Positions 634 to 34,087 of a DNA stretch of 34,656 bases are shown piece by piece (the stretch's first letter is position 1; the number at the start of each line of letters is the position of its first letter). The stretch covers positions 1 to 34,656 of the IMG/VR virus record IMGVR_UViG_3300049826_000104, one strand, 5' to 3'. Under the pieces are notes generated by a model. It had not been told where the DNA came from. It saw only the letters and a program-made list of their open reading frames with translations, and ran no database searches. This stretch comes from a virus. The position numbers and the translations under genes were made by a program.

Positions 634-2002
634 ACTCATCGAGAAGAATCGTGAGCCCGTTCGTGCGAACGAGACAGTTCCAATCTCGATCACTGACTGG
701 GCGAAAATGTTCGCGCAGACAAGTAAAGTCAATTTCGGTGGCAGGATGTATCCATCGTTTTCGCTGACCGGTGGGAACGCATCGCTACCTAACATCGTGT
801 ACACGTGTCAGCAGAAACGCGTGCTGGTGTTCTCGGAAGCACGCATGACATGGCAGCGTTTCCGCGACGGAAGGGCCTTGCCTGGCTCACTTTTCGGCAC
901 ACCGGAACTGTCGATCCTCGAAACACCTTGGCCCGGAGCGACAACGCGCGACCTACTCGCGGTGTGCGAGATGGATCTCGCGGTGCACGGTAACTCGTAT
1001 TGGATTCGCAGCGGCGACTACCTCGCTCGTATCAATCCTGACACGGTGCAGATTCTGTTCTCGGCCGTCGTTGATGAAGTCTCGGGAAACCGTGTGGCAG
1101 AACAACTCTTGGGTTACGCGGTCATTGTCGACAACAAGACAACGATCTACGATCCGCGAGACATCGCGCACTACAAGGGGATTCCCGACCGCTCACGATG
1201 GAAGGGCTCGTCGTGGATCGCATCCGTCAAGGATGACATTGAAGCGGACATGATGCTCACGACGCATAAGTCGGCGCAGGTTCGTAACGGTGCCAACCTG
1301 ACTCACGTGGTCAGTCTCGATCCGAACCTAGATGAAACGAAGTTCGACTCGTTCGTGGAAAAGTTCCAAGAGGCTCACATGGGGCCGCAGCAGGCAGGGA
1401 AAACCCTTTTCCTGCAAGGCGGTTCGGACATCAAGACAGTCGGGCAGACGTTCGAGCAACTGTCGCTCAGAGCCACGCAGGGTGCGGGCGAAACGAGAAT
1501 CGCTGCAGCAGCGGGAGTTTCGCCGGTCCTGCTCGGACTGTCGGAAGGACTGCAGGGAAGCGCGCTCAACGAAGGCAACTACGACGCGGCCAAGAGTGCA
1601 TTCGTTGACTCGTTGATGTGCCCGCTCTGGGGAGCGTTCTGCGCTGCGTTCGCGTCGCTCGTGAATACGCCTGCGGGAGTGCGACTCTGGTACGACGCTC
1701 GCGACATTCCGTTCCTGCGTGAGGATCTCAAGGATCAGGCCGAGGTTCTGTCGAGCAACGCGACAGTCATCTCGGTACTCGTGACGGCAGGCTTCAATCC
1801 CGACGCGGTCATCGAAGCCGTTGTGGCGGGCGACGTTTCGGGACTCAAGGGTAATCACTCGGGTTACTTCTCGGTGCAGTTGCAGAAGTTGGACGAGAGC
1901 ACAACGGATACCGAGGGATCGACAAGCGCGAATCCATCGATGGTGGGCATGAACGGCAAGGTCAGAGCACTAGTGAGCCACGCGACGCAGGAGAGGAAAT
2001 GA
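605..2002 (+). CDS. Portal protein
   Basis: A 465-residue HK97-type portal, the dodecameric ring at the capsid vertex through which DNA enters and leaves. Supporting features are the position directly after terminase, the length, a WxRxGDYL-like wing region (SYWIRSGDYLARINPDTV), and the diagnostic GVSPVLLGLSEGLQGSALN stretch followed by helices and a WYDARDIPFLREDLKD segment. The start is GTG at 605, inside the preceding small gene, with a modest upstream GAAGCGAG. The stop overlaps the protease start as ATGA. Confidence 0.92.
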   Translation: MSALTTLLSRLIEKNREPVRANETVPISITDWAKMFAQTSKVNFGGRMYPSFSLTGGNASLPNIVYTCQQKRVLVFSEARMTWQRFRDGRALPGSLFGTPELSILETPWPGATTRDLLAVCEMDLAVHGNSYWIRSGDYLARINPDTVQILFSAVVDEVSGNRVAEQLLGYAVIVDNKTTIYDPRDIAHYKGIPDRSRWKGSSWIASVKDDIEADMMLTTHKSAQVRNGANLTHVVSLDPNLDETKFDSFVEKFQEAHMGPQQAGKTLFLQGGSDIKTVGQTFEQLSLRATQGAGETRIAAAAGVSPVLLGLSEGLQGSALNEGNYDAAKSAFVDSLMCPLWGAFCAAFASLVNTPAGVRLWYDARDIPFLREDLKDQAEVLSSNATVISVLVTAGFNPDAVIEAVVAGDVSGLKGNHSGYFSVQLQKLDESTTDTEGSTSANPSMVGMNGKVRALVSHATQERK

Positions 2003-2985
2003 ACGACATGGCAACGACTTTCACGCTCGACAGCGGCGCGATGGCGACGGCTCGACCCGCCATCATCCGGTCAGCGACGTTTACTGCTAGAGCCGCAGCG
2101 GATGGCACCGAGGGCGACGGGCTCACCCTCGAAGGGCACGCGGCGGTGTTCGGTCAGCAGACCGAAATCGACTCGTGGGAGGGCACTTTCACAGAGGAGT
2201 GCATGCCCGGCATGTTCAGGAAGTCGATTCGTGAGCGCATGCCGGTCATGCAATTCGACCACGGTCGACACCCGCTCGTCGGCTCGATCCCGATCGGTGC
2301 ATTCGACACGCTCGAAGAAGACAAGGACGGTCTGTTCGTTCGTGCTCGCATGCTCGACAACTGGCTGATACAGCCTGTGCGAGAAGCGATTGCGAATGGC
2401 ACTATCAACGGCATGTCGTTCCGATTCGAGGTGATTCGCGATCGGTGGTTCGACAACAAGGGGAAGCGACTCACTGACCCGAACGAGATTGCGAACCTGC
2501 TATGGGCACCCGGTGACCGTGGTCCGCTGCGTCGTGAACTTGTCGAAGTTCGCGTGCCGGAACTCGGGCCGGTCGTGTTCCCTGCGTACGAGGGCACCGA
2601 CGTGTCAGTCCGCGCCGCTCGCACGGCATCCGAAATCGTTCACGATCCCGCGCTCGCACGGAAGGTTCGAGAGATGCTGGTAACCGGAGTGAATCACGTT
2701 CCCACTTTCTCGGCCGCAGAGATCGCACGGGCGATACTGTTCGACCTGCCGGTACGCGAAGGTGACGAGGGCGACGAGGACAACGAGACTGCGGAGTCGG
2801 AAACGGCTACGCTGGAAGACAACTCGGGAGAGGCCAATCCCGAGGATGCCGCGCCGCGCGATGCGCACCCGGCAGAGAACGACGCGCCGCCGAACGAGGC
2901 ACCCGTCACAACCCCAACGGACAAGGCATCACGCGAACAGTACGTGCGTCGTGCCTACGTGGCGCTCAATGGCGTCGGAAAGTGA
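1999..2985 (+). CDS. Prohead (head maturation) protease, S78-like
   Basis: A 328-residue protein whose first ~200 residues match the HK97 prohead serine protease family. The hallmarks are EGHAAVFGQ near residue 45, the QFDHG motif with likely catalytic His88, and GTINGMSFRF with likely nucleophile Ser140. It would cleave the capsid delta domain during maturation. The last ~90 residues are acidic and low in complexity (Glu, Asp, Asn, Pro, Ala) and may act as a scaffold-like tail. The start overlaps the portal stop as ATGA behind AGGAGAGG; an ATG at 2008 is an alternative. Confidence 0.92.
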   Translation: MNDMATTFTLDSGAMATARPAIIRSATFTARAAADGTEGDGLTLEGHAAVFGQQTEIDSWEGTFTEECMPGMFRKSIRERMPVMQFDHGRHPLVGSIPIGAFDTLEEDKDGLFVRARMLDNWLIQPVREAIANGTINGMSFRFEVIRDRWFDNKGKRLTDPNEIANLLWAPGDRGPLRRELVEVRVPELGPVVFPAYEGTDVSVRAARTASEIVHDPALARKVREMLVTGVNHVPTFSAAEIARAILFDLPVREGDEGDEDNETAESETATLEDNSGEANPEDAAPRDAHPAENDAPPNEAPVTTPTDKASREQYVRRAYVALNGVGK

Positions 2986-2994
2986 CGAAACATC

Positions 2995-33022: not shown

Positions 33023-33351
33023 AGACACCGATGACGTGGGTACCGCCCATCTATCCGACCACGATCTACCGCGCGTGGTACGCGGGAGCGCTTGCAGCAG
33101 TGAAAGTCTACGCCGAGTGGGCCGATCGTGAAGTCGTCACCGATATGCGTGGACTCGTGTTGACGAGTCGCGAGCCTGCGGGAATCGTGTTCCGTGACAA
33201 CAAGTCTCGGCAACATTTCGTGCCTGCGTGCGAGCACGGATGGGTGCAGGGCCTGAAAGTCCACACGCCGAAGTGGGCGCGGGATCTCGTCGTGCTGTCG
33301 AACACGACCGTATCCGACGAGCCGTGCCCGAAATGCGAGGCGACGCAATGA
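33019..33351 (+). CDS. Unknown 110-residue protein with Cys/His cluster
   Basis: A GTG at 33019 follows CAGGAGGAATC and overlaps the previous stop (GTGA). The core is DREVVTDMRGLVLTSREPAG then HFVPACEHGWVQGL, and the end DEPCPKCEAT gives a C-H-CxxC set, again a likely zinc site. N-terminal part is aromatic (YPTTIYRAWYAGALAAVKVY). Unknown function; the ATGA overlap at its end links it to the next gene. Confidence 0.6.
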   Translation: MKTPMTWVPPIYPTTIYRAWYAGALAAVKVYAEWADREVVTDMRGLVLTSREPAGIVFRDNKSRQHFVPACEHGWVQGLKVHTPKWARDLVVLSNTTVSDEPCPKCEATQ

Positions 33352-34076
33352 CTCCCACCGACGACGAAGCGGAAGCGCTGATCGACGCGGCTTTCAGCGA
33401 AAGTGTCTCTGCTGTAGCGGAAGTCATGGACCCTATCATTCTGCATCACCCGCACCGCTTCAACGACGGGACCGTGGCGCCGCTGCACATCGAATTGAAA
33501 GTCCTTCCGTCGGAAGACCTTCCGCTCGAATCGATACCGTCTGTCGTGTCAGTGATCGGTCCGCTTGCGAGTGCGGTCGCCGAAGGACGGTTCGATGAGG
33601 TCACCGGCAACTCGTTCACGTGTCCGATCATGATCTCGTCACCGGCGACACCTGACGAATTGCTGTGCATGAGAGTGCAAGTCGCTTTCGGTGTACACGA
33701 CGACCCTGCCGCCGACTGGGAACTGACGTCGGGAATCATTCTCGGGTACATCATCAACGCGACATTCGTTGAACTCCGCAACGACGCGATGCATTCGATC
33801 GATGAACTCACGACGCAGGCGAGTATCACCACGCTCTCTGCGATCGAGCCTGTGCTGACCACGCTGCATCGCCAATTGGCCGTCACCACAGAACTTCTCA
33901 GTACGCGGTTCGAGAAAATGACTCTGCGGGAACGCAACTCGTGGCAGGAGGCAGCACTCGTCACAGCGACTCTCGGTCAGCACATGGAACACGCGCTCGC
34001 GAACGTGGCGCGCAACATCACCACTCAGAACGAGGCATTCCTCAATGACGAGCGTGTACACAATGGCGGAGACTAG
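33348..34076 (+). CDS. Unknown 242-residue protein, last gene of rightward operon
   Basis: The ATG overlaps the previous stop (ATGA). The first ~140 residues are mixed alpha/beta (IILHHPHRFNDG, HIELKVLPSEDLPL, VQVAFGVHDDPAADWELTSG); the rest is a long helical segment (LTTQASITTLSAIEPVLTTL, MTLRERNSWQEAALVTATLG) with coiled-coil character. No catalytic motif is visible. Two GTGTACAC sites lie at its 3' end and just after its stop, ahead of the next promoter. Confidence 0.55.
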   Translation: MTPTDDEAEALIDAAFSESVSAVAEVMDPIILHHPHRFNDGTVAPLHIELKVLPSEDLPLESIPSVVSVIGPLASAVAEGRFDEVTGNSFTCPIMISSPATPDELLCMRVQVAFGVHDDPAADWELTSGIILGYIINATFVELRNDAMHSIDELTTQASITTLSAIEPVLTTLHRQLAVTTELLSTRFEKMTLRERNSWQEAALVTATLGQHMEHALANVARNITTQNEAFLNDERVHNGGD

Positions 34077-34087
34077 AGCGTGTACAC
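34054..34087. promoter_or_regulatory. GTGTACAC pair upstream of a strong promoter
   Basis: Copies at 34054-34061 and 34080-34087 start 26 bp apart and end 26 bp before the -35 hexamer at 34114. The first overlaps the last codons of the preceding gene. With the pair at 30953/30984, this makes two promoter regions, each with two copies. Confidence 0.65.

Follow-up and report, generated by a model that had tools for sequence, protein, structure and literature searches.

A strict palindrome dispersed through a virus genome fragment and its relatives: candidate sites of a phage-encoded dimeric DNA-binding protein

The window analysed here (W) is the whole stretch of 34,656 nt, a genome fragment of an actinobacterial phage, a virus of soil-type bacteria; its relatives are coded G0xx, G1xx or L0xx. 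Through its portal, glycosyltransferase-like, tail, endolysin, FtsK/TraB-like and SprT-like genes an 8-bp palindrome, GTGTACAC, is scattered (Table 1). An earlier note on this DNA had claimed nineteen copies, fourteen of them extended to 10 bp, where chance would give fewer than one. All nineteen are present in the 34.7-kb fragment (the copy listed at 33692 actually begins at 33691), fourteen are the perfect 10-bp palindrome CGTGTACACG, and dinucleotide shuffles yield a mean of 0.66 8-mers and a maximum of 3. The runner-up palindromic 8-mer in W, CGACGTCG, occurs nine times. There is approximately one palindrome per two kilobases, most copies are intragenic, and the density of CGTGTACACG reaches 404 per Mb. 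In an unbiased dyad scan of W, CGTGT.ACACG with gap 0 ranked first; together with the shuffles, this rules out chance as the source of the copies.

Table 1. Copies of the palindrome and other features of the window
Feature	Coordinates	Strand	Sequence	Context
Site 1	797..804		CGTGTACACG	portal gene, Ile-Val-Tyr-Thr-Cys
Site 2	6140..6147		CGTGTACACG	glycosyltransferase-like gene, VYT
Site 3	6248..6255		CGTGTACACG	same gene as site 2, VYT
Site 4	9094..9101		CGTGTACACG	886-aa gene, VYT; sites at different positions in homologues
Site 5	10983..10990		CGTGTACACG	VYT
Site 6	12616..12623		CGTGTACACG	5' end of small gene, VYT
Site 7	17301..17308		CGTGTACACG	tail gene, VYT at aa 325 (aa 188 in G026 homologue)
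Site 8	19750..19757		CGTGTACACG	tail gene 19432-20217 (+ strand), VYT
Site 9	20576..20583		CGTGTACACG	endolysin, Arg-Val-His
Site 10	24243..24250		CGTGTACACG	VYT
Site 11	24980..24987		CGTGTACACG	FtsK/TraB-like gene, Arg-Val-His
Site 12	26251..26258		TGTGTACACG	FtsK/TraB-like gene, VYT
Site 13	29716..29723		TGTGTACACG	SprT-like gene (minus strand), Arg-Val-His
Site 14	30953..30960		CGTGTACACC	spacer of leftward promoter
Site 15	30984..30991		CGTGTACACG	divergent control region, 31 bp from site 14
Site 16	32244..32251		CGTGTACACG	Thr-Cys-Thr
Site 17	33691..33698		GGTGTACACG	Gly-Val-His
Site 18	34054..34061		CGTGTACACA	final codons of gene 33228-34076, Arg-Val-His
Site 19	34080..34087		CGTGTACACG	intergenic, 26 bp from site 18; upstream of TTGACA box at 34114
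Predicted sigma-70-type promoter	30939..30967	-	TTGACA-17-TAGATT	10/12 consensus matches; site 14 in spacer
Divergent control region	30703..31097			between leftward gene 30325-30702 and rightward gene 31098-31391
Membrane protein (DUF2637-like)	27645..28352	+		C-terminal winged helix; weak candidate reader
FtsK/TraB-like ATPase (by inspection)	24559..26760	+		Walker A GMPGAGKT; weak candidate reader

The unit is CGTGTACACG, a strict palindrome. Its arms are strict and its core is all-or-none; one-mismatch versions form no enriched halo, which rules out a degenerate operator family, and comparison of 66 sites revealed no further strongly conserved flanks. An all-or-none core resembles an enzyme target, and the intragenic copies lie mostly in the same cheap reading frame. 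The motif might spread or persist without any regulation, through molecular drive, as a target of DNA modification or restriction, or as a tag of recombination or uptake. We regard this as quite improbable, since one-mismatch intermediates expected under drive are not enriched, restriction would favour avoidance rather than excess, a methyltransferase was not noted in W, and both the promoter-spacer site and the positions common to relatives would be left unexplained.

Site-by-site reading bears out the claim of three codon contexts and of additional non-coding copies. Ten copies encode Val-Tyr-Thr (VYT) and one Thr-Cys-Thr (32244); Arg/Gly-Val-His is read at 20576, 24980, 29716 (minus strand), 33691 and 34054 (the last codons of a gene), and three copies are clearly non-coding (30953, 30984 and 34080). 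The sites ignore gene boundaries and show no preference for control regions, as coding sequence makes up 89% of the window and holds 18 of the 21 sites with at most one mismatch. Codon or protein bias arising from the shared VYT might be invoked, for ten of the nineteen copies encode this tripeptide, which is itself over-represented in W (10 against 1.7). However, all ten are spelled GTG TAC ACG, where 2.4 are expected, and some copies use a different frame, lie on the opposite strand or fall between genes. The spelling GTG TAC AC serves VYT in 10/10 cases in W, 6/7 in G002 and 11/13 in G026. Synonymous-codon shuffles (n=300), which hold proteins and all non-coding copies constant, give 5.6 copies on average and 10 at most, versus 19 observed. 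In the portal gene, the motif-bearing W, G002, G001 and G026 read ATCGTGTACACGTG at an identical codon position (G007 has a matching peptide context), whereas most motif-less relatives read GTGTTCGCC, Val-Phe-Ala, in the same place. Codon-preserving shuffles and a comparison with related phages were the check suggested in the earlier note. The shuffles and the portal comparison refute codon or tripeptide bias, which is hardly credible any more as the maker of the copies, and they support a signal at the DNA level, as had been claimed. The sites are kept by selection on DNA, not on proteins.

One copy had been placed in the spacer of a consensus promoter, and it is indeed found within the 17-nt spacer on the minus strand, between TTGACA (30967-30962) and TAGATT (30944-30939). 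G026 has the same divergent arrangement, with a site at 34521. The promoter-spacer site could be luck, because the sites have no preference for control regions.

The motif is shared by related phages. It recurs in five contigs that share the W capsid protein and range from 47 to 71% G+C, and it is also present in G019. Two independent routes, a motif-pair scan and capsid homology, led to the 53-kb G026, which has 16 copies. CGTGT.ACACG came first in the unbiased dyad scan not only in W but also in G026, G002, G011 and G019. Site 11 has the same position and codons in G026 and is not found in the motif-less homologues of L071 and L072. In G003, the top-ranked dyad is CGTGC.GCACG; it contains seven copies of GTGCGCAC, of which six take the form CGTGCGCACG, and coding copies read Val-Arg-Thr (VRT). 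Other relatives carry unrelated dispersed dyads, namely GTTGCC-N3-GGCAAC (about 99 in 49 kb) and TTGCG-N-CGCAA (32 in 43 kb); G188 and G187 have dyads other than CGTGTACACG, each fixed to one spacing. G018, G025 and G029 contain few, intergenic copies and were picked by the motif-pair scan, hence they are excluded as support. We also set aside CGCGTACGCG in G034 and G036, where 4 and 6 copies make too weak a case, and GTAAC-N7-GTTAC in G003, a local repeat lying mostly at 15.5-18 kb. The sites, their strictness, the DNA-level selection, the recurrence, the G003 variant and the dispersed dyads of other relatives are all computed results. Differing palindromes scattered alike in relatives point to a putative genome-wide DNA-binding system. 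Because palindromy and strict arms fit a dimer, its reader is most likely a dimeric protein, with specificity differing between lineages.

The reader might be encoded by the host, the phage carrying the host's own dispersed dyad since a host protein silences, organises or protects such DNA. In its favour, the Amycolatopsis pretoriensis chromosome and the prophage G005 that resides in it, itself related to W by its capsid, have the dyad GTCCA-N3-TGGAC in common; 50 copies (at most one mismatch) occur in 200 kb versus about 15 in synonymous shuffles. Nevertheless, we find a host reader improbable. In the sampled Actinomycetota genomes the density of CGTGTACACG does not exceed about 11 per Mb, compared with 404 for W, although the true host may lie outside the sample, and different hosts are suggested because CGTGTACACG phages span such a range of G+C. 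Clusters of copies in two actinobacterial chromosomes, G133 and G145, do not represent prophages: neither shows phage homologues, and in G133 the copies reflect repeated similar genes.

Dispersed palindromes by which one dimeric protein acts across a replicon are exemplified by the KorB operators of IncP plasmids and by Noc and SlmA sites. Similarly, a phage-encoded DNA-architecture protein could read the sites for condensation, partition of an extrachromosomal prophage, membrane tethering or packaging, with incidental effects on transcription; the earlier note had also allowed that a centromere- or nucleoid-type protein may be the alternative. This explanation, which we consider possible but rather unlikely, would accommodate the blindness to gene boundaries, the turnover of positions while genes retain a site somewhere (the tail gene at aa 325 in W and aa 188 in G026), the lack of any integrase seen in W or G026, the FtsK/TraB-like ATPase and winged-helix membrane protein of both, and the density of about one site per 490 bp in G188. 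On the other hand, the sites are spaced no more evenly than random ones, and ParA/ParB were not found among the scanned proteins. Unlike a parS or centromere array beside parAB, the sites span W; unlike KorB, Noc and SlmA sites they are strict and mostly intragenic, and genes resembling ParB, Noc or SlmA were not identified. The W winged-helix protein has a relative in motif-less G006 and not in G026, whose counterpart at that position shares the architecture with undetectable sequence similarity; as a reader it is weakened. The FtsK/TraB-like protein is weakened likewise by motif-less homologues in G038 and G039. FtsK KOPS are oriented, and Streptomyces TraB recognition sequences are clustered and direct; an 8-bp motif beside an FtsK/TraB-like gene recalls them, but the W sites are palindromic and dispersed. 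The SprT-like protein common to W, G026 and G019 is zinc-metalloprotease-like by inspection and matches phrog_6361, with no DNA-specificity domain seen. The HTH proteins of G026 comprise a MerR/BldC-like protein and the membrane-anchored winged helix.

No integrase that would point to lysogeny was seen in W or G026. Among the relatives, inspection indicates recombinase/integrase-like genes in G187 and G188, and G005 is a prophage.

The earlier note likened the pattern to Cluster A stoperators in logic, not in sequence. In L5, Bxb1 and Trixie, 20-30 asymmetric, transcription-oriented sites per genome, one of them in an early promoter, are bound by a monomeric repressor, and their consensus varies among related phages along with the specificity of the repressor (PMC6550527, PMC9283540). 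The copy number here is of the same order (19 in 34.7 kb, 16 in 53 kb, and 9 in a 28-kb relative), one site lies within a predicted early-type promoter, and the site sequence differs between relatives (CGTGTACACG versus CGTGCGCACG). Still, unlike the asymmetric, oriented 13-14 bp stoperators, CGTGTACACG is a perfect palindrome independent of gene boundaries, and PHROGs/Pfam revealed no known repressor among the scanned proteins of the W fragment and G026. The sites are not stoperators, being palindromic, unoriented and not intergenic, but they may resemble them in logic.

The closest precedent, not named in the earlier note, comes from Cluster O mycobacteriophages, whose 17-bp palindrome TGTTCGG-N3-CCGAACA has about 34 copies in Corndog and 31 in the 72.7-kb Ryadel (PMC4351075). 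This repeat is a perfect dyad with arms invariant in all counted copies, often intragenic, mostly away from promoters, without clear orientation and absent from those host genomes that were examined; these phages lack an integrase, and the function was described as unknown in 2015 (PMC4351075). We found no later explanation in the literature searched. A perfect dyad, invariant arms, dispersal, partly coding location mostly away from promoters, absence of orientation and no integrase are common to both systems. The sequences are unrelated, the W unit is 10 bp with gap 0, intergenic copies are more frequent in Cluster O, and the N3 spacing is seen again in G188 but is absent from W. The phage collection searched contained no match to the W tail protein encoded at 11568-12149. 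Cluster K start-associated sequences, also short dispersed actinophage repeats, are linked to translation starts and were contrasted with Cluster O repeats (PMC4351075); only a minority of W sites, e.g. 12616, lie near a gene start.

We tentatively prefer, while granting that it may well be wrong, that CGTGTACACG marks sites of a phage-encoded dimeric DNA-binding protein used for global silencing. We infer that a protein reads the sites, that the phage encodes it and that its effect is silencing. One symmetric, sequence-specific protein would occupy some 16 or more CGTGTACACG sites genome-wide, most likely to silence the whole genome in a dormant or early state. Acting like a classical operator, site 14 would occlude the leftward early promoter; the intragenic sites might act as roadblocks or loop anchors. 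By analogy, such stoperator-like silencing would be the leading function. The promoter-spacer site, its paired neighbour 31 bp away and the site in the equivalent region of G026 favour silencing. Against it stand the absence of an identified reader protein in W or G026, the lack of control-region preference, palindromes that cannot be oriented with transcription, and G187, the closest tail relative of W, in which the motif is absent altogether.

Taken together, these phages form a second set with the dispersed-palindrome layout of Cluster O. It is conceivable, if somewhat unlikely, that the almost uncultivated actinobacterial phages each carry their own genome-wide dyad array (CGTGTACACG, CGTGCGCACG, TTGCG-N-CGCAA or GTTGCC-N3-GGCAAC), set irrespective of genes. 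Their readers would be phage proteins of an undescribed, fast-evolving class that coat or silence the whole genome, Cluster O repeats being another instance. The portal change from Phe-Ala to Tyr-Thr suggests that selection seemingly alters structural proteins to make a DNA site, a case where DNA-binding needs shape phage protein sequence. Finally, several lineages of one family hold differing sequences in one layout, and they offer natural specificity variants for finding the reader.

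The palindromic core GTGTACAC occurs 19 times in the window against 0.66 copies in dinucleotide shuffles, and the copies listed in the earlier note are borne out, with one position off by one base (33691, not 33692). Among 66 copies from eight contigs of the group, the core is preceded by C or followed by G in 123 of 132 flanks, and no strong conservation extends beyond this first flanking base; the unit of the site is CGTGTACACG. Cores with one mismatch appear at or below the expected frequency, so the core is all-or-none. The spacing of sites is no more regular than random, and their genic share tracks coding content (18 of 21 at a coding fraction of 0.89 in the window, 17 of 19 at 0.86 in the related contig G026).

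Selection targets the DNA of these sites. Firstly, called genes of the window (from a simple codon-usage caller, whose misplaced gene around 19750, for example, was corrected by homology) contain ten Val-Tyr-Thr tripeptides where 1.7 are expected. All ten are spelled GTG TAC ACG, while codon use predicts that 2.4 would start with GTG TAC. The spelling GTG TAC AC accounts for 11 of 13 such tripeptides in G026, and in G002, a relative of 49% G+C, six of seven begin with GTG TAC against 0.5 expected. Secondly, synonymous shuffles of the window, which preserve both tripeptides and non-coding copies, yield 5.6 copies on average and ten at most, against the observed 19. Thirdly, portal proteins of the motif-bearing window, G001, G002 and G026 have the peptide Ile-Val-Tyr-Thr-Cys where the site lies; motif-less relatives mostly have Val-Phe-Ala, with codons such as GTGTTCGCC. 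An Arg-Val-His site, in another frame, is common to the FtsK/TraB-like genes of the window and G026. Its valine codon, GTA, is rare (9% and 6%, respectively), and two motif-less homologues have Arg-Trp-Arg or Gln-Trp-His at the same place. Between homologous genes the place of a retained site often differs, as in one tail gene (amino acid 325 in the window, 188 in G026) and in the family of the 886-aa gene. This suggests that selection favours having sites rather than fixed positions.

The window is a 34,656-base piece of viral DNA from IMG/VR. It runs from the end of a large terminase gene through portal, protease, major capsid protein, a glycosyltransferase-like gene, head-tail and tail genes, tape measure and endolysin to an early region; nucleotide comparison with 50,697 phage records gives no match to its first 24 kb. 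The window and most of its relatives are fragments. Capsid homology gathered 17 contigs. Of these, L005, L006, L011, L015 and L019 (counts in the table) carry the motif although they span 47 to 71% G+C, and the others have zero or one copy. Searching the viral collection independently for two motif copies close together returned G026 (53 kb, 16 copies), later also reached by capsid homology at 76%, and G019 (8 copies in 15 kb). A SprT-like protein is common to G019, G026 and the window.

Positions and motif counts of features in the window and compared sequences
Sequence	Feature	Position or count	Remark
Window	site 14	30953-30960	
Window	site 15	30984-30991	
Window	internal repeat around ATGGTCTG (minus-strand reading) in 886-aa gene	7720-8880	5 of 7 window copies
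Window	tail protein	11568-12149	no protein match among 50,697 phage records
Window	FtsK/TraB-like ATPase (by inspection), small proteins, DUF2637-like winged-helix membrane protein	24559-28352	also in G026, L071, L072; ATPase and winged-helix protein without match among 50,697 phage records
L005	GTGTACAC, full record	3 in 7.8 kb	
L006	GTGTACAC, full record	9 in 28 kb	
L011	GTGTACAC, full record	4 in 5.8 kb	
L015	GTGTACAC, full record	4 in 23 kb	
L019	GTGTACAC, full record	3 in 5.8 kb	
L039 (G019)	contig start like bacterial thioredoxin-domain/DUF255 gene	1-1250	by inspection
L039 (G019)	first palindromes, just past that gene	1430, 1471	
L050 (G028)	four intergenic palindrome pairs upstream of small genes	7107-8969	three share CGTGTACACGTAAACGTTTACGTGTACACG layout
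L072	GGACAGGACA repeat clusters by TraB-like gene	around 3190-4112 and 9470-9581	
G187	XRE-like gene	21724-22047, minus	by inspection
G187	serine-recombinase-like gene	25100-26689	by inspection
G187	XRE-like gene	33214-33696	by inspection
G187	WhiB-like gene	35471-35749	by inspection
G037:C11 (L128-L137)	prophage G005, Amycolatopsis pretoriensis	about 327123-394588	
G330:C1 (L145, L146, L157-L166)	AGCCC-N5-GGGCT, actinobacterial chromosome	1-240000	56 in 240 kb

Several features in the table deserve separate mention. The start of the G019 contig suggests an integrated prophage junction. The pairs in G028 make up an operator set, and their contig gave no match to window proteins. The ATPase, the small proteins and the winged-helix membrane protein together resemble a Streptomyces plasmid transfer module, here inside a phage, and the GGACAGGACA clusters are possibly the transfer recognition sequence of the TraB-like gene.

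Judged from the sequences compared, dyad specificity changes between lineages. G003 (capsid 77%) has zero GTGTACAC and seven GTGCGCAC, six of them as CGTGCGCACG; five are coding and read Val-Arg-Thr. An unbiased dyad search placed CGTGC.GCACG on top in G003 and CGTGT.ACACG in the window, G026, G002, G011 and G019. The search was widened to contigs related by tail proteins, each dyad being scored relative to its own half-sites spaced differently, and it revealed other dispersed dyads there. GTTGCC-N3-GGCAAC numbers 99 sites in G188 (tail protein 46%); any other spacing yields about 2, and synonymous shuffles yield about 18. Of the tail relatives, G187 (78%; L125-L127, IMGVR_UViG_3300045741_000200, 43 kb) is the closest. 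It has 32 TTGCG-N-CGCAA, where other spacings give 3.5 and shuffles about 12, and it lacks GTGTACAC across a 20.6-kb piece surrounding its tail genes. The roughly 99 copies in G188 (L122-L124, IMGVR_UViG_3300049298_000007, 48.8 kb) comprise 19 exact and 80 one-mismatch dyads, one per ~490 bp; the same dyad occurs more sparsely in its relative L100 and possibly in L089. Sequence inspection finds recombinase/integrase-like genes in G187 and G188 and an XRE-type repressor-like gene in G187 (the HTH, integrase and TraB-like assignments for these two contigs and the ATPase are partly by inspection). GTCCA-N3-TGGAC is present in G005, G195, G196 and G197. CGCGTACGCG, with 4 and 6 copies in G034 and G036 (L058, L060), is a possible weak further variant.

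Strict palindromes scattered through a whole genome imply a protein that binds DNA as a dimer and would read them. Because site 14 falls within the spacer of a predicted leftward promoter (10/12 consensus match), site 15 lies three helical turns away and G026 has a site in its matching divergent region, regulatory use is suggested. Two results weaken this reading: the sites take no account of gene boundaries, and protein searches of the window and G026 found no repressor. We tentatively rank genome-wide silencing first; a role in DNA architecture comes second, as less likely. A reader encoded by the host ranks third. It is possible in principle, since the Amycolatopsis pretoriensis chromosome and its prophage G005 have a common dispersed dyad, GTCCA-N3-TGGAC / TGTCCAC-N-GTGGACA, at the DNA level: 50 in 200 kb of chromosome at up to one mismatch against ~15 in synonymous shuffles, while the exact 15-bp form occurs 29 times in 10.3 Mb and never in the control. 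This sharing with the host also renders the dyad of G005 type less certain than those of the window, G187 and G188. For the window motif, a host reader seems unlikely unless its host lies outside the sampled genomes (148 of the Amycolatopsis class, 296 of its phylum), whose chromosomes hold CGTGTACACG at no more than ~11 copies per Mb, compared with 404 in the window. The G330 repeat in the table is possibly a CRISPR or REP-like element.

Like the window sites, the stoperators of Cluster A mycobacteriophages come in similar numbers and drift in specificity, but differ in being asymmetric and having an orientation (PMC6550527, PMC9283540). Cluster O phages carry 17-bp palindromes with invariant arms (34 in Corndog), about one third of them coding; these lack orientation, and their function is given as unknown (PMC4351075). 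Since they form the same kind of array with a different sequence, the window array is a further variant of a kind already known yet unexplained. To the known systems it adds a clear signal of DNA over protein, the specificity variant in G003, and evidence of different arrays in several lineages of one family.
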